This document shows, in pieces, positions 6,363-38,472 of a stretch of 38,698 nucleotides of DNA; position 1 is the first letter of the stretch; each line of letters opens with the position of its first letter. A program made the position numbers and the translations under genes. The notes under the pieces are model-generated. The model was given only the letters and a program-made list of their open reading frames with translations, was not told where the DNA came from and searched no databases. Origin of the DNA: a virus. Location of the stretch: the IMG/VR virus record IMGVR_UViG_3300035099_000166, positions 1 to 38,698 of that record. The stretch is one strand, 5' to 3'.

Positions 6363-6740
6363 ATGAGCACCCGGGCCATGGATACCACTCAGGCCAACGT
6401 CAGTATCCTTGAATGGCTGCGCGAACGGGCCAAGACTCCTCCTTGCGACTGCTGCGCGGCCCGTTGCAGTCAGAAACTGGAGATGTTGCAGGAGCAAGGG
6501 CGGTGCAAGGAACGCCAGGAGCCGGACGATCCCAAGGAAGAGGGCAAGGGTTTGATGGTCCCTCGCGCCGCGCTGGAGTGGGCGGTTTTGGAGGCGGTAG
6601 CTTGTGAGCTGGAATGGCGTTGCCGGGTCGGACCTGGCCGCTGTTTGGGAGCTGAGACGTGTGACCGGGTTCGTGGCAGCGAGAGCTGCGTTGCTAGCCT
6701 GTGCGAGGCAGCGATCCGCGAGGGAGGGAAGGGAAGCTAG
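6363..6740 (+). CDS. Cys-rich small protein, first copy of a duplicated gene
   Basis: A 125-residue protein of unknown function. The N-terminal half carries CDCCAARC (about residues 28-35). The C-terminal 61 residues, from MVPRAALEWA, are duplicated in the next gene, with five cysteines spaced through RCRVGPGRC, CDRVRGSE and SLCEA. That pattern suggests a small metal-binding or disulphide-rich module. ATG 6363 follows the peptidase stop by 14 bases with a poor ribosome site, so translation may be coupled. The DNA of the duplicated part, 6555-6740, aligns without gaps to 6851-7036. Confidence 0.6.
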   Translation: MSTRAMDTTQANVSILEWLRERAKTPPCDCCAARCSQKLEMLQEQGRCKERQEPDDPKEEGKGLMVPRAALEWAVLEAVACELEWRCRVGPGRCLGAETCDRVRGSESCVASLCEAAIREGGKGS

Positions 6741-7036
6741 AAATGCTAGTCATCATTCGCCAAGTCAAGGATGGTCGACCTGAAGAGGACATGTTCCGAA
6801 AGTCCATTGGCTCCCTGGCGGGCCGCGAGGGCAATCAGCGGATCGGGCCGATGGTCCCGAGGGCGGCGCTGGAGTGGGCCGTCCTGGAGGCGGTAGCTTG
6901 TGAGCTTCAGTGGCGTTGCCGGGTCGGACCCGGCCGCTGCCCGGGAGCCGAAAGGTGCGACCGGGTTCGTGGCAGCGAGAAGTGCATTGAGAGTCTGTGT
7001 GAGGCGGCGATCCGCGAAGCCGAGAAGGGGAGCTAA
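6555..7036 (+). repeat. Tandem direct repeat of a 186-base coding module
   Basis: Bases 6555-6740 and 6851-7036 are two equally long copies with no insertions or deletions between them, separated by 110 bases. The encoded proteins are about 87 percent identical (8 differences in 61 residues). The reading frame is kept in both copies, so this is gene duplication followed by divergence under coding constraint. Confidence 0.9.
6743..7036 (+). CDS. Cys-rich small protein, second copy
   Basis: A 97-residue protein whose last 61 residues match the upstream gene at about 53 of 61 positions, with cysteines conserved. Its first 36 residues differ from that gene but resemble the start of the gene at 7835: MLVIIRQVKDGRPEEDMF here against IILLVRQLKDGQP there. 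Thus three neighbouring small genes share two modules in different combinations. ATG 6743 was chosen because a purine-rich stretch (GGGAAGGGAA, about 6726-6735) precedes it and because the homologous N-terminus begins there. Function unknown. Confidence 0.6.
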   Translation: MLVIIRQVKDGRPEEDMFRKSIGSLAGREGNQRIGPMVPRAALEWAVLEAVACELQWRCRVGPGRCPGAERCDRVRGSEKCIESLCEAAIREAEKGS

Positions 7037-8148: not shown

Positions 8149-8718
8149 ATGCCTGATCGCCTCACCCTCGGCTTCGACCTGGGCCGTCGGCTGGCCTGGG
8201 CGCTGGTCTTGGACTGGCAGCTTCTTGATCATGGCTGCTTTTATCTGGCCAGCCCCGGCCCTGGGCCGCCGCGTGACGCTATCCGAAGGCGCACTTTGGG
8301 GGACGAGTGCCGCCTCTGCGAACAGGCTGCCGGCTATGTGCGCAACCTTCTCGCAGAAAAGCGGCCAGCAGTCGTGGCGCTGGAGAAGCCGCAGGTGCCG
8401 ACCTGGCTGACGACCGGCGCCGAACTGCGGCGCAAGGCGCGAGACACGGAGTGGCTTTGGCTGCTCGGTTGGTATATCGCGCGGGAGGCCGGCGCTGCTG
8501 GGGCGGAATTGGCGGTCGTCACGGCACAGGAGGGCTTCGCGGCGTTGACGGGCAGCGTCAGCGGTGATAAGGTTGCTCACGTCAGGTTGGCTAACCTCCG
8601 CTTCGGGCTGAAGCTAAGGGCAGGGGAGCATCACGTGGCCGACGCCATAGGCGTGGCCCTGGCGGGGGAGGCGCGGGAAGGCCATCAGGAGCTGTTGAGG
8701 CGATTGGGAGCGTATTGA
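8149..8718 (+). CDS. RuvC-like nuclease (RNase H fold)
   Basis: The 189-residue protein has the layout of RuvC-type Holliday junction nucleases. A first acidic residue lies in GFDLGRR (Asp10), a second in VVALEKP (Glu79), and the C-terminal HHVADAIGVAL gives the His-x-x-Asp pair (His161, Asp164). Together these form the metal-binding active site. The size fits RuvC (about 170-190). In phages such enzymes resolve branched DNA before packaging, which suits the position just before the packaging genes. GCGGAGGAGG lies ahead of ATG 8149. I infer the fold from motifs only; a more distant RNase H-like role is possible. Confidence 0.72.
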   Translation: MPDRLTLGFDLGRRLAWALVLDWQLLDHGCFYLASPGPGPPRDAIRRRTLGDECRLCEQAAGYVRNLLAEKRPAVVALEKPQVPTWLTTGAELRRKARDTEWLWLLGWYIAREAGAAGAELAVVTAQEGFAALTGSVSGDKVAHVRLANLRFGLKLRAGEHHVADAIGVALAGEAREGHQELLRRLGAY

Positions 8719-8741
8719 ACACTTGCCGAGGAGCGACTACT

Positions 8742-9221
8742 ATGCCGTTATCGGAACTACTGTACTGCGGCACCGAACGTGACTGCCCCGGCAGGCCGGC
8801 ACTGCGCGAGACGCTGAGTGCCGATCAGGAAAAGCGCGTCAAGGTCCTCCTTGCCTCCGAGTTCGGGGGGTCGCGCTCTGATGCTACGAGCCGGCAAAAG
8901 CCGCGCCTGGCTGGCCTCTACTCCTCGCCGCCTCGCGAGCCGCTGCCCGAGCCGAAACTGCCAGAACTGCGCGATCTGATCCGCTACGTGTGCAAGCTGG
9001 AAAGCGGCGAGTTGCTCTCTGGCGAGGGGCCTGACGACCGACGCAAGCGCCGCGAGGAAGTGGCCGTGGAGAGCGGGATAGAATCATTCACGAAGGGCGA
9101 GCACCTGGCTTGCCTTGCCGCCGCCTCCCGCCTTGTGCGACTCTGCATTTTCGAGGGAGGCGAGGAAATCGCGATCCTTGACCGCGAAGGCCGGCGCAAG
9201 ATTCTACGGGAGGGGTCTTGA
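8742..9221 (+). CDS. Hypothetical phage protein
   Basis: A 159-residue, charged protein I do not recognise. It has CGTERDCPG near the N-terminus, a basic middle (residues about 60-110) and a helical C-terminal part (HLACLAAASRLVRLCIF). ATG 8742 was chosen over an earlier TTG because CGAGGAG at 8727-8733 is eight bases away. The last bases of the gene are shared with the -35 element of the promoter at 9218. It is the last gene before the late module. Confidence 0.5.
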   Translation: MPLSELLYCGTERDCPGRPALRETLSADQEKRVKVLLASEFGGSRSDATSRQKPRLAGLYSSPPREPLPEPKLPELRDLIRYVCKLESGELLSGEGPDDRRKRREEVAVESGIESFTKGEHLACLAAASRLVRLCIFEGGEEIAILDREGRRKILREGS

Positions 9222-9246
9222 CAAAGCGCACATCGGTCACTACAAT
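9218..9246 (+). promoter_or_regulatory. Promoter P1, consensus sigma-70 type
   Basis: TTGACA (9218-9223) and TACAAT (9241-9246) are separated by exactly 17 bases. The -35 box overlaps the stop codon of the preceding gene. Transcription would begin near 9253, inside the repeated leader segment. This is one of the two best promoters in the window and faces the terminase genes. Confidence 0.8.
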
Positions 9247-9287
9247 CACGGTTGCATAACACCTATCACCGTGCCTGGACGACGGCC
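9246..9287 (+). repeat. Leader repeat, copy 1
   Basis: A 42-base segment beginning at the last base of the P1 -10 box. It is repeated at 9478-9519 with three transitions. It folds as CCGT (9269-9272) with ACGG (9282-9285), and CCTAT (9262-9266) with ATAGG (9288-9292) outside it. As both copies start at the same place relative to their promoters, this is the start of two transcripts. Confidence 0.8.
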
Positions 9288-9449
9288 ATAGGGCTTTAGC
9301 TCCAGTAGATAGGACGCCATTCGCAGGCTGAAAACGCCGCTAATGGCATCAATGAACCAGATCCACAAGAGGCCTGGACGAGGCCATCGCGGACTGCCCT
9401 TCAGGGGCGGGACGAAGCGAGAAGCCCCGCCGATTCGTCGGCGAGGAGT
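9288..9449 (+). ncRNA. Structured non-coding stretch between P1 and P2
   Basis: No coding frame of note. It holds several inverted repeats: GCCATT 9316-9321 with AATGGC 9342-9347; GGCCT 9371-9375 with AGGCC 9381-9385 (loop GGACG, similar to the loop of the leader repeat); GGCGGG 9406-9411 with CCCGCC 9426-9431; and CGCCGA 9428-9433 with TCGGCG 9438-9443 around a TTCG tetraloop. The last two compete for the same bases. A P1 transcript would cross all of these, so it may be a regulatory leader or small RNA. Confidence 0.4.
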
Positions 9450-9478
9450 GTCACAAAGCTGCCGGCGCTCGCTATAGT
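9450..9478 (+). promoter_or_regulatory. Promoter P2, matched to P1
   Basis: TATAGT (9473-9478) with GTCACA (9450-9455) 17 bases upstream. The -35 is weaker than in P1, but ACAAAGC at its end and TCACGG after the -10 box are shared with P1 at identical spacing. Transcription would begin near 9485, about 55 bases before the end of the terminator. Confidence 0.6.
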
Positions 9479-9519
9479 CACGGTTGCATAACACCTATCA
9501 CCATGCCTGGATGATGGCC
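9478..9519 (+). repeat. Leader repeat, copy 2
   Basis: Matches 9246-9287 over 42 bases with three differences. The hairpin is kept: CCAT (9501-9504) pairs with ATGG (9514-9517), where copy 1 has CCGT and ACGG. Its end runs into the terminator stem. Confidence 0.8.
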
Positions 9520-9540
9520 GCCTCTACCGAGGCGGCTTTT
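9517..9540 (+). terminator. Intrinsic terminator before the terminase gene
   Basis: Perfect 8-base stem GCCGCCTC (9517-9524) and GAGGCGGC (9529-9536), loop TACC, followed by TTTT (9537-9540). It would stop P1 and P2 transcripts before the late genes unless read through. Confidence 0.85.
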
Positions 9541-9600
9541 CTCATTCCAGCCGTGGTGCCAGACTAGCAACTATTAGCGTTTCGGGTAGCACGATGCGCC

Positions 9601-10068
9601 ATGTATACCTACCCCGCAAAATTGCAAGTAGCCTATGTGCGCCATAAGGAAGGCGGCACTTGGGCCGAGTCCGCTGCCGTCATTGGGGCTGCCGAAAGTA
9701 CGATCCGCCTCTGGGATAGCAACCGCGACGAGGAATGGGAGCGGGCGTGCGCAGAGGTCCTTGAGGACATGCGCCGCGAAGCGCACGGCGCGGCGTGGCG
9801 TTGCCTCGTGGAGGCTGCTAAGGCTGGTGACGTGGGTGCCGCCAAGGAGATTCTGAACCGGACGGAGGGCGCGGTGAAGCAGACAATCGGCCTCGGCCAG
9901 GACCCGAACGCCGGGCCGCTGCGGCATGACCATCATATGCGGGAGGTCGTTAGCAACGAACGCGCTAGACGAGCGCTATGTGACCTGGTTGAGGCAGTTG
10001 CCGGTGGCGAAGGCGACGCCGGCGGGGTATGCGAGGGAGATGAGTCGGGGCCGGTGGAAACTTGCTAG
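9601..10068 (+). CDS. Terminase small subunit
   Basis: A 155-residue protein placed directly before the large terminase. The N-terminal part reads as a helix-turn-helix DNA-binding domain (KLQVAYVRHKEGGTWAESAAVIGAAESTIRLWDSN, positions 6-40, motif described in part), followed by a helical centre (AAWRCLVEAAKAGDVGAAKEILNRTEG) typical of small terminases that oligomerise. It would recognise the packaging start site. The ribosome site is weak. The last 143 bases overlap the large subunit ORF if that starts at 9926. The terminator at 9517-9540 lies 60 bases upstream. Confidence 0.7.
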   Translation: MYTYPAKLQVAYVRHKEGGTWAESAAVIGAAESTIRLWDSNRDEEWERACAEVLEDMRREAHGAAWRCLVEAAKAGDVGAAKEILNRTEGAVKQTIGLGQDPNAGPLRHDHHMREVVSNERARRALCDLVEAVAGGEGDAGGVCEGDESGPVETC

Positions 10069-11374
10069 GCACCTGAACTACCTCAATCGCAAGCTGATGG
10101 ACACTGCCGCTGGCGCTTGCCGGCGGCTTTTGGTGTTTATGCCGCCCCGGCACGGCAAAAGCGAAATGATCTCCCACTACCTGCCGGCGTGGTATCTCGG
10201 TTGGTGGCCGGAGCGTCACGTGCTGCTGTGCAGTTACGAGGCGACGTTCGCGGCAAGCTGGGGCCGCAAGGCACGGGATACCTTTGCCGAAGCGGCAGAG
10301 GCGGGCTTATTCAAGCACAAGTTGAATCCCGACCGGGCGGCGGCGTCGGAGTGGGAAATAGCGAGGCACGGGGGCGGCATGGTGACTGCCGGCGTCGGCG
10401 GCGCAATCACGGGGCGCGGCGCGGACCTGCTGATCCTGGACGATCCGGTGAAAAACGCCGAGGAGGCGCAGTCCCTCACCTACCGAGAGAAGTCCTGGGA
10501 CTGGTATCTGAGCACCTTTGCAACACGCTGTGAGCCTGGCGCGGCCGTCATCATCATCGAGACGCGCTGGCACTATGATGACATAGCCGGGCGCATTCTG
10601 GCAACGGCGGACGGCAATGGGGAGCGCTGGGAGGTTGTAAGCCTGCCGGCCATCGCCGAGGAGAACGATCAGTTGGGGCGGCTGCCAGGCGAAGCGTTGT
10701 GGCCGGCCCGTTATCCAGTCCCGAAGCTGGAAAGTATCCGTCACAACCTCGGTAGCTACTGGTGGTCGGCCCTATACCAACAGCGGCCCTCGCCGCGAGA
10801 GGGGGGCATGTTCAAGCGGCAGTGGTTTCCGATCGTGGAGGCCGGCCCCGCCGTGGTTGACGTCGATGTGCGCTTCTGGGACAAGGCGGCCACTGCCGGC
10901 AGCGGGGACTGGACTGTCGGCCTCCGTATGCAACGCCGAGGTGGCGAATACTACATAGTTGACGTACAACGTTGCCAGGAGAGCAGCGGGGCGGTCAAGG
11001 CGCTTATCAGGCAGACGGCGGCGCTGGACGGGCCGACAGTCCGCATAGGCATGGAGCAAGAGCCGGGCAGCAGCGGCAAGGACGTTATCGAGGACTACCG
11101 CCGCGAACTGGCCGGCTATGCGTTTCAGGGGGTGCCGGCCACCGGTAGCAAGCAAGTTCGCGCCGAGCCGCTAGCGGCGCAGGCCGAGGGCGGTAACGTG
11201 AAGTTACTACGTGCTCCCTGGAACCCCGGCTTTTTAGACGAGATCTGTAGCTTCCCGACGGGGGCACACGATGACCAAGTTGACGCGGCGGCAGGAGCCT
11301 TCAGGGTGATACACCTCTTGGCCGCAAGGCCGCAGGTTGTCACCATTCAACTAACGGAGCCGGTAACGATATGA
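9926..11374 (+). CDS. terL: Terminase large subunit
   Basis: ATP-driven DNA packaging motor and nuclease, 482 residues. Walker A is MPPRHGKSE near residues 71-79, Walker B is LLILDDP near 168-174, and an arginine/coupling region follows (IIIETRWHYDD). The RNase H-like nuclease half begins with FWDKAATAGSGDWT near 316, with a second acidic site GMEQEP and a C-terminal DDQVDA near 449. All catalytic parts are present. The start is uncertain: ATG 9926 gives a family-like N-terminus with a 143-base overlap, while ATG 10039 (MSRGRWKLARHLN) has GAGGGAG before it. It overlaps the portal start by ATGA. Confidence 0.93.
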   Translation: MTIICGRSLATNALDERYVTWLRQLPVAKATPAGYAREMSRGRWKLARHLNYLNRKLMDTAAGACRRLLVFMPPRHGKSEMISHYLPAWYLGWWPERHVLLCSYEATFAASWGRKARDTFAEAAEAGLFKHKLNPDRAAASEWEIARHGGGMVTAGVGGAITGRGADLLILDDPVKNAEEAQSLTYREKSWDWYLSTFATRCEPGAAVIIIETRWHYDDIAGRILATADGNGERWEVVSLPAIAEENDQLGRLPGEALWPARYPVPKLESIRHNLGSYWWSALYQQRPSPREGGMFKRQWFPIVEAGPAVVDVDVRFWDKAATAGSGDWTVGLRMQRRGGEYYIVDVQRCQESSGAVKALIRQTAALDGPTVRIGMEQEPGSSGKDVIEDYRRELAGYAFQGVPATGSKQVRAEPLAAQAEGGNVKLLRAPWNPGFLDEICSFPTGAHDDQVDAAAGAFRVIHLLAARPQVVTIQLTEPVTI

Positions 11375-31448: not shown

Positions 31449-32438
31449 ATGGCAGACTGGCTAGTGCAGGGCGCGGGGGATACGTCATACAACGGCGACT
31501 ACTACGAGGCCGGGACGTACAACGGGCACCCGTACTATACTGGGCCTGCCCCGACGGATGACAGGTACCTGTTCTGGGGCAGCGTCTGGAACTGCTGGAT
31601 ACTGGGCTTCTTCTTGGGCGAGCCGCCGCCGCCGCCGGACTATGCCAATGGCACGACGCTACCCGGAACATGGGTCGTCGAGGTGGGCATTCCTCCCGCG
31701 CCGCACGTCGCTGCCGGCAGCCTGCATCTTGAGACGCTAACCTCCGGCGGGGACGTTACAATCGAGGGGGGCGTCGCGGCGGAGCTACTAATCCAGACTA
31801 GCGGTGGGGACATCGAGGTTGAGGGGGGTGTTGCGGCGGAGCTACTAACGCAGATTAGCGGCGGGGACATCGAGGTCGAGGGCGGCTCGTCGGTGAACGC
31901 CGTTGAGCAGACCTCCGGCGGGGAGATTATCTGCGAGGGCGGCGTAGGGGGGGAGCTGCTAACCCAGACTAGTGCTGGGGAGGTTACAGTTGATGGCGGC
32001 GTAGCGGGGGAGCTGCTGACCCAGACTAGCGGCGGGGAGATCATAGTCGAGGGCGGGTCGCCGGTAGACCTCGCCGAGCAGACCTCCGGCGGAGACATCG
32101 AATCCGACGGCGGCGTGGCAGCCCAAGCGGCGGCGCAGACCTCCGGCGGGGAGATTATCTGCGAGGGCGGAGGCGTACTGCAACTAATCACCGACCTATC
32201 CGGCGGGGAGATCGAACTTGAGGGCGGCTGGACAAGCAAGTATACCGCGCCGCCCGTAGTAGTCTTGAGCCTTGCCGGGGGCGACATTGGCTTCGAGGGC
32301 AGTAGCCTGCCTCCGCTAGTCGCATACCTATCTGGCGGCGCTGTCCTTTGGGACGCTGGTCAGGAGGAGGAGGTCATCATCGGGCCGGGGACTTCAACGA
32401 GCTGGTGGGACTGGGTGAGGGCGAAGAAGGCGTCCTAA
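31449..32438 (+). CDS. Repeat-rich tail fibre/adhesin protein
   Basis: A 329-residue protein. The N-terminal 70 residues (NGDYYEAGTYNGHPYYTGPAP, quoted beyond family limits only in part) form a small aromatic domain seen at the start of phage tail-tip proteins. Residues about 95-290 are made of 19-residue repeats of the type xAAELLxQTSGGDIEVEGG, about nine near-perfect copies plus degenerate ones; the even spacing of Ser-Gly-Gly and Glu-Gly-Gly turns suggests a stacked beta-solenoid rod. A helical, charged C-terminus follows. It is probably a receptor-binding or fibre-shaft protein. GGAGGAGG lies 11 bases before ATG 31449. It shares TAATG with the next gene. Confidence 0.65.
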   Translation: MADWLVQGAGDTSYNGDYYEAGTYNGHPYYTGPAPTDDRYLFWGSVWNCWILGFFLGEPPPPPDYANGTTLPGTWVVEVGIPPAPHVAAGSLHLETLTSGGDVTIEGGVAAELLIQTSGGDIEVEGGVAAELLTQISGGDIEVEGGSSVNAVEQTSGGEIICEGGVGGELLTQTSAGEVTVDGGVAGELLTQTSGGEIIVEGGSPVDLAEQTSGGDIESDGGVAAQAAAQTSGGEIICEGGGVLQLITDLSGGEIELEGGWTSKYTAPPVVVLSLAGGDIGFEGSSLPPLVAYLSGGAVLWDAGQEEEVIIGPGTSTSWWDWVRAKKAS

Positions 32439-34963: not shown

Positions 34964-34982
34964 GGCCGAACAGCGTTCGGCC
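34964..34982 (+). promoter_or_regulatory. Hairpin without T tract
   Basis: GGCCGAA (34964-34970) and TTCGGCC (34976-34982), loop CAGCG. No run of T's follows, so it is more likely a processing or stability element at the start of the lysis genes than a terminator. Confidence 0.4.
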
Positions 34983-35033
34983 GCTGCTCGCCATCTTGTG
35001 ACAATGAACAGTCGCACCGAGGGGTGTATGGTC

Positions 35034-35299: not shown

Positions 35300-35614
35300 A
35301 TGGACAATCTGCCCGCCATCCCCGGTTGGTTGATTGCATTGTGTGTTTTGTTGGTCAACTTCGTGGTGGACGTCCTGAAGCAGTTCTGGTCAGCGATGCC
35401 GGGCTGGGTGAAGATGGTTTTGAGCCTGGGCATCGGGCAGGCCCTGGTCTGGTGGGCCGGGCTGGACGTATTCGCGGCGGCGAAGCTCATGCCAGGCGTG
35501 ACGCCGCTGGGCATCGCCCTGACCGGCTTGCTGCTGAGCGCCGGCGCAAGCGTGGCGGTGCAGCCGGTCAAGAAGCTGGCGCTAGGGCTTGCTGAGCCGC
35601 TGGGACCAGACTAG
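35300..35614 (+). CDS. Holin-like membrane protein
   Basis: A 104-residue protein with three hydrophobic segments: GWLIALCVLLVNFVVDVL, VKMVLSLGIGQALVWWAG and, after VFAAAKLMPG, LGIALTGLLLSAGASVAV. Size and three membrane helices suit a class I holin, which opens the membrane at lysis time. AAGGAG at 35286-35291 is 8 bases before ATG 35300; ATG 35294 is too near. The matching cell-wall enzymes would be those at 4883 and 5620, far away. Confidence 0.62.
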   Translation: MDNLPAIPGWLIALCVLLVNFVVDVLKQFWSAMPGWVKMVLSLGIGQALVWWAGLDVFAAAKLMPGVTPLGIALTGLLLSAGASVAVQPVKKLALGLAEPLGPD

Positions 35615-35633
35615 ATAGGGAAAGCCCTATTAT
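35615..35633 (+). terminator. Weak hairpin after holin gene
   Basis: ATAGGG (35615-35620), loop AAAG, CCCTAT (35625-35630), followed by TAT only. Possible weak terminator. Confidence 0.3.
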
Positions 35634-35639
35634 CGCGAC

Positions 35640-35651
35640 GGAATCGCGCCA
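35640..35651 (+). repeat. Direct repeat flanking the methyltransferase gene, left copy
   Basis: GGAATCGCGCCA, identical to 38397-38408. The surrounding 45 bases are also similar (CGAA, GCGCA and GGGCA pieces in the same order). The right copy stands before the adenylyltransferase gene. Confidence 0.6.
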
Positions 35652-35693
35652 GGACGAACCCTGGGCGCACGCAGGGGCACTCTAGGAGCAACC

Positions 35694-38375
35694 GTGAGTA
35701 GCGTTGCCGAGGTCTTAGAGGGGCGGCGGCGTTGGGCGGTCGTCGAGGGCGACTGCCTGGAGGTCATGGCGGGGCTACCAGAGAACAGCATAGACGCGAT
35801 TCTGACGGACCCGCCGTATGGCTGGTCGTTCATGGGGCTGGACTTTGACAAGGCCCTGCCCGACCCGGCCGTCTGGCGCGAGTGCCTGCGGGTCCTCAAG
35901 CCGGGCGGCTCTATGGTGGCGATGTCGGGCTCGCGGCTGGACTGCCTGTGGCGGGTGTGTCGTGACATAGAGGGCGCGGGGTTCGACCTGGGGCAGACGG
36001 CGTTCGTTCATGTCTACAGGTGCGTGAGTGAAGACACTGAAGTTCTCACGGAAACCGGGTGGGAACGGTACAGTAAATCAATTGCAACGAAGTTGGTGTT
36101 GTGCTATAATGTAGACGCTGGCACCTTCGAGTTTCATAGGCCCCGGAGGACCTTCGTCTATGACTACCAATATCCCGCCATCAGAGTACATTCGGATAAG
36201 ACAGATCAACTTGTCACCCCAAACCACCGCGTCCTTGTTGAACGCGAGGGAAGAATGGCATTTGAGGAGGCTCGGACGCTGGCACCCGAGGTGGAAGCAT
36301 CCGTACCCATTCTGGAAAGTTTGCATGATTTGCCAGACCATATTCCCTGCGGTGACACAGGCACAAGCATACAAAAAGAGGACCTGCTCGAAGCGGTGTG
36401 CCGACAGGTCCACCAGTATCAACAAGACTGGAAAGCCAGGGCCGAAGAAGGCTATGGAGGATCGGCCCGGCATGGTGCAGATCACCTGTGCTGTCTGCGG
36501 GGAGAAACGATGGAGGAACCGAGCCTGGGTGAAGCATGTTGCGAAGCCGACTTGTTCGCGTCGCTGCAACGGGGTTCTGCGAGCCAAGGCATTAGTCCCG
36601 CACCTGTCACGGGCCAGGTCGTGCTGGACGGAAGCAAGCATGGCGAGTTACCGGGAGAAGATGACCGGGGCGAACAATCCAGCCTGGAAGGGTGGCGTAA
36701 CCTACTTCCGCAAGCGCGGGAAGTACAAGCCAATCAAGTATGTGCGGTGCCCGCAGGAGTTCCTGCCGATGGCCCGCAAGGATGGATATGTGAGGGAGCA
36801 CCGCCTGTTTGTTGCTCAAGCACTCGGCAGGTGCTTGACCCGGATGGAAACAGTTCACCACGTCAACCACGATCCGACAGACAACAGCTTGGAAAACCTG
36901 CAAGTCTTCAGCAGCAATCAGCAGCACAAGCTCTTCGAGCGCCATGGGGAACCAGCACCACTTTGGCCGTAGCTGAAGAGGTCGAATACCACGGGCGGAT
37001 GTGGTGTATAGAGGTCCCGACTGGCGCCTTCGTCGCCCGGCGCAATGGGCAGATATTCATCACCGGCAACAGCGGTTTCCCAAAGGGACAGAATCTCAGT
37101 GCCGCCGCCAATGCCAAGGCTTTTCGGGCGTGGCTGGACAGCGTTGAGCACGGGCTGAGCGCGGCGGAGGTTCGGCAGGTGACGAGCGCGGCGGTGAACG
37201 GGAGCTACCCCTTGCACCACGGCGGCGGTACAGCGCCCAATCCGATGGACAGGGCGGCAGGACTAGGGGACCGCGAAGGAATGGCGAGAGGCAACGGCGA
37301 CGCTGCCCTCCTCTCCTCAATTCTCGCCCGGCACTGGCATCCTCTCCCGGAGGCGGAGAAGCGGGCGGCCTGGGAGGGCTATGGCGAGGCACACCTGGAG
37401 AGGCCACCGGGGGTGAGGGTGCGACTAGGGCCAAACATTAGCGGAGGCAGGGCGCGTGGCGATGAAGCACACGGCAAGACTATATATGAGATCGCTATGT
37501 ATGGCGAATGGAAGTCCGCTGGCGACGGTCTAACTACTCCTTCCACCACCCTCGCCCGCCGCCTCCAAGGCCAGTACTCGAAGGGCAAGGTCAAGCCCGC
37601 CTGGGAGATATGTATCTGGGCGAGGAAGCCCATCAGCGAGGGCAGCGAGCTGGCGAACGTGGTGAGGTGGGGCGTGGGCGAGGTGAACTGCGGGGAGGCG
37701 ATGATACCGTTTGAGGACGATCAGAAACCTAAGGGCGGTTACGGCGGTATGAGAGTCGGGATGGGCGCAGTAGGCGAGCATCAGGACTATTCTGGCCATC
37801 AGGAGTGCAACCCTGCAGGTCGCTACCCGCCGAACCTACTGGTGCAGGACGCCGCGCTGGGCGAGGAGGGCAGCAGGTTCTTCGACATTGAACGTTGGGC
37901 GCAGGAGCACGGCTTCACCGAGGACGGCTGGGCAGAGGCGGCAGAGGCGGGGCTGCTGCAGATCGCGAAGGCGAGCCGGGGCGAGAAGAATGCCGGGTGC
38001 GAGGGGCTGCCACAGATACAACGTCACAAGATGGCGAGCAGTGGCCGAACGCTGATAGATGGCGAATGGGTGGAAACACATAGCGAGCCGTGTTCGCGTG
38101 GCAATGACCATGCCACTGTCAAGCCGGTGCGTTTGTTCGGGTATTTTTGTGCTTTGCTCTGCCCGCCCGGAGGTGTCATCTTGGATACGTTTGCGGGCAG
38201 CGGCACTACTGGCGTGGCCACCCTCCTCGAAGGCCGTCGCGCTATTCTGATTGAGCGCGAGGCCGAATACTGCCGGATAGCCGAGGCGAGGTGCGCCCAT
38301 GCCGAACGCCAGGCCGAGGAGAAGCGCCGTCGCCGCGCCCAGCTCGCCCTTGAACTTGAGGCAGCGGGGGGATAG
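35694..38375 (+). CDS. Beta-class DNA methyltransferase interrupted by an intein
   Basis: A continuous frame of 893 codons. Its extein is a DNA methyltransferase: TDPPYG (residues 38-43, motif IV) comes first and LDTFAGSGTTG (about 831-841, SAM motif I) last, the order of beta-class N6-adenine or N4-cytosine enzymes. The conserved SGFPKG motif is broken just before its Ser by a 350-residue intein (110-459). Removal leaves a 543-residue enzyme reading VYR-SGFPKG. GTG 35694 has AGGAG 5 bases upstream. With the MT-A70 protein it gives the phage two DNA methyltransferases. The intein frame has no stop across a region that clearly codes for an HNH endonuclease in another frame. Confidence 0.85.
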   Translation: MSSVAEVLEGRRRWAVVEGDCLEVMAGLPENSIDAILTDPPYGWSFMGLDFDKALPDPAVWRECLRVLKPGGSMVAMSGSRLDCLWRVCRDIEGAGFDLGQTAFVHVYRCVSEDTEVLTETGWERYSKSIATKLVLCYNVDAGTFEFHRPRRTFVYDYQYPAIRVHSDKTDQLVTPNHRVLVEREGRMAFEEARTLAPEVEASVPILESLHDLPDHIPCGDTGTSIQKEDLLEAVCRQVHQYQQDWKARAEEGYGGSARHGADHLCCLRGETMEEPSLGEACCEADLFASLQRGSASQGISPAPVTGQVVLDGSKHGELPGEDDRGEQSSLEGWRNLLPQAREVQANQVCAVPAGVPADGPQGWICEGAPPVCCSSTRQVLDPDGNSSPRQPRSDRQQLGKPASLQQQSAAQALRAPWGTSTTLAVAEEVEYHGRMWCIEVPTGAFVARRNGQIFITGNSGFPKGQNLSAAANAKAFRAWLDSVEHGLSAAEVRQVTSAAVNGSYPLHHGGGTAPNPMDRAAGLGDREGMARGNGDAALLSSILARHWHPLPEAEKRAAWEGYGEAHLERPPGVRVRLGPNISGGRARGDEAHGKTIYEIAMYGEWKSAGDGLTTPSTTLARRLQGQYSKGKVKPAWEICIWARKPISEGSELANVVRWGVGEVNCGEAMIPFEDDQKPKGGYGGMRVGMGAVGEHQDYSGHQECNPAGRYPPNLLVQDAALGEEGSRFFDIERWAQEHGFTEDGWAEAAEAGLLQIAKASRGEKNAGCEGLPQIQRHKMASSGRTLIDGEWVETHSEPCSRGNDHATVKPVRLFGYFCALLCPPGGVILDTFAGSGTTGVATLLEGRRAILIEREAEYCRIAEARCAHAERQAEEKRRRRAQLALELEAAGG
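36021..37070 (+). mobile_element. Intein in the methyltransferase gene
   Basis: Residues 110-459 of the gene at 35694. It begins with CVSEDTEVLTETGW (Cys1 nucleophile), has TPNHRVLV with Thr175 and His178 (block B), and ends with VEYHGRMWCIEVPTGAFVAR and NGQIFITGN (blocks F and G, each quoted separately), followed by Ser460. The usual penultimate His is Gly here. The part between about 36340 and 36960 does not resemble an intein endonuclease in this frame. GC content looks lower than in the neighbouring genes, suggesting transfer. Confidence 0.85.
36160..36972 (+). CDS. HNH homing endonuclease nested out of frame in the intein
   Basis: In the +1 frame relative to the intein, a 270-residue protein with two zinc-ribbon-like sets (CMIC at 55-58 with CSKRC at 76-80; CAVC at 110-113 with CSRRC at 132-136) and a C-terminal HNH domain: DGYVREHRLFVAQALGR, then METVHHVNHDPTDNSLENL (residues 229-247). 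It ends with TAG 36970-36972, ten codons before the C-terminal intein block. ATG 36160 has a strong Shine-Dalgarno, CGGAGGA, with about nine bases of spacing, inside the intein gene. It would cut intein-free alleles and drive homing. A later start nearer the first zinc site is possible, as residues 1-50 overlap intein block B. Confidence 0.8.
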   Translation: MTTNIPPSEYIRIRQINLSPQTTASLLNAREEWHLRRLGRWHPRWKHPYPFWKVCMICQTIFPAVTQAQAYKKRTCSKRCADRSTSINKTGKPGPKKAMEDRPGMVQITCAVCGEKRWRNRAWVKHVAKPTCSRRCNGVLRAKALVPHLSRARSCWTEASMASYREKMTGANNPAWKGGVTYFRKRGKYKPIKYVRCPQEFLPMARKDGYVREHRLFVAQALGRCLTRMETVHHVNHDPTDNSLENLQVFSSNQQHKLFERHGEPAPLWP

Positions 38376-38396
38376 GCGAACCCCTACTGTCCGACC

Positions 38397-38408
38397 GGAA
38401 TCGCGCCA
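38397..38408 (+). repeat. Direct repeat flanking the methyltransferase gene, right copy
   Basis: Identical 12 bases to 35640-35651. It sits in the 97-base gap between the methyltransferase and the adenylyltransferase gene, which otherwise shows no clear promoter or terminator. Confidence 0.6.
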
Positions 38409-38472
38409 CGGCGAAACCTCGCGCAATTCACGGGCATTCTGATCTGAGGACGGAGCGAAGGAGCGTCAGGGC

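Follow-up and report, generated by a model that had tools for sequence, protein, structure and literature searches.

Between ORF168 and the terminase small subunit gene (terS) of an uncultivated phage, an arrangement was found which may form a late gene switch gated by a terminator. The window analyzed was the complete IMG/VR virus record IMGVR_UViG_3300035099_000166 (38,698 bases, G+C about 63%). ORF168 (8715-9221), two tandem sigma-70-like promoters (P1 and P2), two copies of a leader, one intrinsic terminator and terS (9601-10068) follow one another on the + strand, and the same order of parts, in single-copy form and with homologues of ORF168 and TerS, was evident from the sequence of one distantly related record, L082. 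In the favoured reading, which was given about an even chance, this is a late switch like those of Q and AlpA, with a promoter-proximal terminator and with ORF168 in the position of Q. All identified genes of the window lie on the + strand, in the order of replication genes, terS, terminase large subunit gene (terL), portal, capsid and tail. In lambdoid phages the order is resolvase, regulator, promoter, terminator and late genes.

Promoters, leader copies and terminator

P1 (9218-9246) was composed of TTGACA (9218-9223), a spacer of 17 bases and TACAAT (9241-9246), with 11 of 12 consensus positions, and P2 (9450-9478) of GTCACA (9450-9455), again 17 bases and TATAGT (9473-9478), with 9 of 12. 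The equal spacing named in the original prediction was borne out. P1 and P2 were the only two promoter-like sites in 8500-10200, where shuffled sequences gave a mean of 0.2, and they are not a product of chance; thus no further promoter was predicted in 9540-9601, where the original prediction required that there be none. The exact pattern TTGACA-N16-18-TANNNT occurred twice in the 38.7-kb record, at 9218 (P1) and at 29444. The latter promoter (TTGACA-17-TATGCT) has a long 5' leader (29444-29605), with a long hairpin of -33.4 kcal/mol at 29521-29605.

Both promoters lie within a direct repeat of 88 bases with 75% identity (9200-9287 and 9432-9519). Leader copy 1 (9247-9287) was identical to copy 2 (9479-9519) at 38 of 41 bases, the differences being 9271 (G in copy 1, A in copy 2), 9280 (C, T) and 9283 (C, T). 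From the -10 box to 9287 and 9519, 42 of 47 bases agreed, so the 42 bases said earlier to be shared exist as matching positions and not as one exact run, the longest of which is 25 bases (9246-9270). The two copies differ much less in the segment from -10 to +35 than in the spacer, which a recent duplication with drift of the spacer would also explain. A compensatory hairpin in the leader was rejected: random draws of three transitions preserved a 4-pair stem in 6.6% of cases, or in 12.8% when only G-to-A and C-to-T changes were allowed, so the stem that the two copies share could have arisen by chance, and it was absent from the leader of L082.

The terminator common to P1 and P2 (9516-9541) has a stem at 9516-9537 with 9 pairs, a loop of 4 and -17.7 kcal/mol, followed by the tail TTTTCTC (last stem base included); it had been called perfect, which is true for the stem while the U tract is interrupted. 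The similarity of the repeat ends at 9287 and 9519, the terminator begins there after copy 2 only, and beyond these points similarity was at shuffle level, so a single terminator serves two promoters, and the idea that copy 1 once had a terminator of its own, now decayed, was rejected. P2 with this terminator was the sole promoter-to-terminator unit found by the scanner on both strands of the record, and one mark of the Q type, an intrinsic terminator close behind the promoter and ahead of the late genes, is predicted from the sequence. If transcription starts at the 7th base downstream of each -10 box, +1 is 9253 for P1 and 9485 for P2, the terminator begins 31 nt after the P2 start, and RNAs of about 57 nt from P2 and about 289 nt from P1 would be expected. 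The small RNA of about 55 bases suggested before follows from this layout at about 57 nt, although nothing shows that the RNA acts. A basic ORF of 44 aa at 9343-9477 (pI 12.0) was dropped as a gene, since nothing supports such a status.

ORF168 and its relative in L082

Searches with ORF168 and with TerS each pointed to one record, L082. The pattern search with ORF168 gave one relative in 8 matches, and the search with alignment A1 (ORF168 and ORF143 of L082) returned the L082 record only (1 of 57), while TerS gave 0 relatives in 2 matches as a single sequence and 1 in 40 as an alignment, again L082. No relative was found among GenBank phages, and profile A1 had none among 6, 301, 251 and 249 genomes (some counted twice), an empty answer which shows little.

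In L082 a RusA-like resolvase is followed by ORF143 (37% identity to ORF168 in A1), a promoter, a terminator and TerS (35% identical to TerS of the window), which is the same order as in the window. Its promoter has TTGACA over the stop codon of ORF143, then 17 bases and TAGCCT, and after 29 bases comes a terminator with a 12-pair stem (-20.5 kcal/mol); in the window the stop codon of ORF168 likewise lies inside the -35 hexamer of P1. The exact pattern TTGACA-N16-18-TANNNT was observed once in the 19.5-kb record of L082, at the ORF143-TerS junction, and the homologous unit was the sole promoter-to-terminator unit in L163, which covers more of the L082 record. The TerL families differ, phrog_2 in L082 versus phrog_38 in the window, and relatives of the TerL of L082 were 2 of 6 matches, one being L082 itself.

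The leader of L082 had no detectable similarity to that of the window (a fraction of 0.56-0.57 of shuffles scored as well), its promoter region is single-copy without any repeat, and no hairpin was seen in the leader ahead of its terminator. Since the layout is conserved together with a different TerL, and the leader and its duplication are not, the promoter-to-terminator layout behind a gene of the ORF168 type seems to be what matters, and the doubled leader seems, judging from the two sequences, a feature of the window lineage. The earlier proposal that the repeated leader is a recognition site is not supported by this. An exact 20-mer of the leader matched 0 stretches in viral contigs. The leader may still be read as DNA or RNA. 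The late gene switch of a new type was supported only in part: the promoter-proximal terminator before the packaging genes was retained in L082, and the duplication and the leader sequence were not. The heptamer ACTCACG, found after the -10 box of the L082 and 29444 promoters, was rejected as a phage signal, because a scan found it in 3 stretches including L082, and no terminase unit was present around the other two promoters in the stretches read; it looks like an ordinary promoter flavour.

ORF168, which could also start from ATG 8742, is a candidate late regulator in the position of Q, a role that we infer from gene position alone. It had no match in Pfam, PHROG or the Protein Data Bank (PDB), no match to phrog_36, phrog_248 or a sigma-R4-like domain, and no similarity to lambda Q, to the phrog_6836 gene of locus L137, or to the genes upstream of the units in loci L049 and L045. 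The gene at 8742 had been put forward as antiterminator; it occupies the right place, but sequence searches link it to no known antiterminator. That ORF168 is the factor opening the switch is a tentative assignment, which was held at clearly less than even weight.

Promoter-terminator units at terminase loci

A set of 160 TerL-related loci together with L082 was surveyed. Under strict limits 4 units (L015, L049, L082 and L116) were found in 215 kb upstream of TerL versus 4 in 2,856 kb elsewhere, with 0 in shuffles over 10 rounds of 153 upstream stretches, and the loose limits yielded 11 promoter-to-terminator rows in the 278 kb upstream versus 30 in 2,793 kb elsewhere, some rows sharing one terminator; both comparisons set mostly non-coding against mostly coding DNA. 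Given a promoter, and with L082 left aside, a terminator followed in 3 of 36 cases near TerL versus 4 of 300 elsewhere (p 0.029), and outside long ORFs in 3 of 25 versus 3 of 200 (p 0.019), a test which corrects the coding bias only in part and gives modest p values. Most of the surveyed loci had no such unit. The scanner recovered lambda pR' (TTGACT-17-TAAATT) and missed lambda tR', so these counts are lower bounds.

Units precede the terminase in L015, L043, L049 and L116, that of L043 under loose limits only, and the other loose rows near TerL were in L062, L065 and L081. In three of the four loci the gene next upstream matched phage transcription-regulator families, namely phrog_79 'anti-termination protein Q-like' in L015 (E 7.9e-5), phrog_36 in L043 (E 2.6e-9) and phrog_248 in L116 (E 8.7e-5), and in L049 it had no family match. 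L045, which was picked up by homology to the regulator of L043, carries a unit too, while L065 and L117, reached by the same route, had no unit directly behind the regulator. Behind ORFs not matched as regulators a unit was seen in 9 of 4,927 cases, L049 and L082 included. The association of regulators with units is circular for 3 of the 6 regulators, whose seeds were chosen as neighbours of units, and its p value was not used. In L137 (620-740) TTGACA lies over the stop codon of the phrog_6836 gene, with a -10-like box and a terminator downstream, which resembles the layout of P1; this unit does not adjoin the terminase large subunit, and the phrog_6836 protein (function unknown) is unrelated to ORF168.

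Proposed mechanism and comparison with known systems

In the antitermination reading, host RNA polymerase with a sigma-70-type factor would start at P1 and P2, whose near-consensus boxes suggest that an activator is dispensable. Most transcripts would stop at 9537-9541 when the phage factor is lacking, leaving leader transcripts of about 57 nt (P2) and 289 nt (P1). As a phage protein builds up, most likely ORF168, polymerase would be modified at or near the promoter, and the modified enzyme would continue past the terminator into terS, terL and the genes for structural proteins. The promoter and leader would have been duplicated in the window lineage, so that both promoters feed one terminator. 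Promoter firing, termination, regulated read-through and ORF168 as the agent are all steps that we infer. Antitermination is favoured because of the lambdoid-like gene order, the mode of action of Q and AlpA, and a start-to-terminator distance like that of AlpA (31 versus 26 and 54 nt).

The window resembles the lambda Q-pR'-tR' system, and that of phage 21 Q, in having a candidate late regulator gene, a sigma-70 promoter, a terminator and then the late genes. It is different in that ORF168 is unrelated to lambda Q, the promoter is duplicated with a spacer poorly kept between the copies, a pause hexamer before +15 is missing, and the leader runs about 31 nt to the terminator where that of lambda is longer. 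Even the Q proteins of lambda and phage 21 lack homology to each other (PMC6606751). Both Q and AlpA bind at the promoter during an early pause and then block formation of the terminator hairpin (PMC6606751, PMC9371919). For AlpA of Pseudomonas aeruginosa, the terminators at PalpB and PA0807 begin 26 and 54 nt past the start (PMC7969949), and AlpA requires both a -10-like CACGAT (-1 to +5) and an element located between the -35 and -10 boxes (PMC9371919). The window is like AlpA in its terminator close behind the start, which in the AlpA case is opened by one regulator, and unlike it in that neither a CACGAT-like box nor the -35/-10 element is clearly present. With HK022 put it would share a signal in the transcribed leader, the region best conserved between the copies, but the two copies in the window have no stable hairpin in common, nor does L082 have one in its leader ahead of the terminator. 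ORF168 may act like Q, and it is not filed as a member of Q.

Several points weigh against this reading, besides the reservations given with the survey. The spacers between -35 and -10 of P1 and P2, where Q and AlpA bind, agree at only 10 of 17 positions, though a short binding site could sit in AAGC of the spacer or elsewhere. No NANNNT, the -10-like pause hexamer, was present before +15 in either copy; the same scan gave AACGAT at +1 in lambda, GATACT at +6 in L082 and none within the bases scanned in L015. ORF168 is not basic (pI 7.6, or 6.6 from ATG 8742), compared with 5.2 for the L082 homologue, 9.4 for lambda Q and 8.9 for RinA of phi 11. No match to Q, helix-turn-helix or zinc-finger families was detectable in ORF168, and its AlphaFold model (pLDDT 40) gave an unusable fold.

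ORF168 could instead be an activator of initiation of the RinA/Ltr type, with the terminator ending the early operon and late transcription leaking through it or coming from an unseen promoter. RinA and Ltr of Gram-positive phages are likewise encoded directly upstream of the terS promoter, and the genes upstream of the units in L043, L116 and L045 are of this kind. They are described as activators which bind repeats upstream of the promoter, the Ltr repeats being at -107 to -42 at P23 (PMC13123087), but here the best conserved segment is -10 to about +35; the repeat of P1 and P2 spans and follows the promoter, and no further repeat of the Ltr kind was found upstream of 9200. In addition, a consensus -35 as in P1 is unusual for an activator-dependent promoter, ORF168 is neither basic nor matched to their sigma-R4-like domain, and no promoter was predicted downstream of the terminator, which leaves the activator with a rather small chance. 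A 10-pair terminator was present between rinA and terS of phi 11 (L172:2455-2478), and one 24 bases before terS of TP901-1 (L173:4519-4539), following a gene whose annotation names it a late activator demonstrated by experiment, while in A2 the stretch scanned downstream of the annotated transcriptional regulator, a gene which does not adjoin the terminase genes, contained none. These terminators, from three chosen phages, are a lead and not a test, and they may simply close the early operon.

Another explanation is that a stable small RNA (about 57 nt, or 289 nt from P1) acts in trans and that late read-through is unregulated. The 61-nt P2 stretch folded better than 200 of 200 shuffles (z -4.3), but the terminator accounts for most of this stability, L082 does not share the leader sequence, and no family of Rfam was matched at gathering thresholds, so that such an RNA is quite unlikely. 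The repeated -10 box and leader could also be an operator, where a phage repressor on both copies blocks late initiation. CACGGT-N15-ACCGTG across the start region of copy 1, and two spaced copies suited to looping or to a cooperative repressor, would agree with it; the palindrome is broken in copy 2 (ACCATG), however, the L082 promoter region is unrepeated and the terminator is left unexplained, which makes an operator decidedly unlikely. Packaging sites are often near terS, and the repeats, 80-360 bases upstream of terS, could be sites bound by TerS (pac or cosB-like) that overlap the promoters by coincidence. This was judged very improbable, as there are two copies only, these agree best from the -10 box onward, and L082 has a homologous TerS without a repeat there or any leader similarity.

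An unlikely extension of the antitermination reading is a widespread and largely unrecognised switch, in which promoter-proximal terminators stand before the terminase and upstream regulators of unrelated families (sigma-R4-like RinA/ArpU-type, Q-like, ORF168) would be wholly or partly antiterminators; in the window the factor would load at the duplicated leader (-10 to +35) and not at the -35/-10 spacer. A hint comes from L015, L043, L116 and L045, where a regulator of this sort stands next to a promoter-terminator unit. No treatment of RinA/ArpU regulators as antiterminators was seen in titles and abstract openings of the open literature. If the switch is as proposed, ORF168 would be the first member of another Q-like family unrelated to the known ones, and the two natural copies of promoter and leader would allow a test of what such a factor recognises. 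Late regulators of uncultivated phages could be sought by this simple layout, in which a promoter at the regulator's stop codon is followed after about 30 bases by a terminator and then by terS. The layout also raises the question of whether the RinA/Ltr 'activators' act on initiation of transcription or on read-through.

Other features of the genome

Upstream of ORF168 is a gene for a RuvC-like Holliday junction resolvase (8149-8718, + strand; phrog_159, E 1.8e-5). The first late gene, terS, matched phrog_2538 weakly (E 0.015) in addition to TerS of L082, and terL follows at 9926-11374 (+ strand; phrog_38, E 2.9e-95). Inside terL a strong terminator-like stem of 9 pairs was observed at 10106-10127, followed by TTTTGG.

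Thymidylate synthase and ribonucleotide reductase families often carry inteins. A DNA methyltransferase of 893 aa is encoded at 35694-38375, with its N- and C-terminal parts (phrog_6025 and phrog_67) about 500 residues apart, and the insert between them, with weak matches to thymidylate synthase/ribonucleotide reductase families (phrog_85, phrog_12229), looks like an intein. The gene is flanked by a 70-base repeat with 70% identity (35614-35683 and 38371-38440), and a 32-base inverted repeat is located nearby (34971-35002 and 38023-38054).

A direct repeat of 186 bases, 83% alike, occupies the ends of two consecutive ORFs (6554-6739 and 6850-7035). Arrays of the pentamer AGCNN were found at 29601-29701, 30409-30489, 30523-30638 and 31198-31303, mostly intergenic and near the tail end of the genome, and coding repeats with a period of 57 bases were present at 31740-32138 in the gene at 31449-32438.
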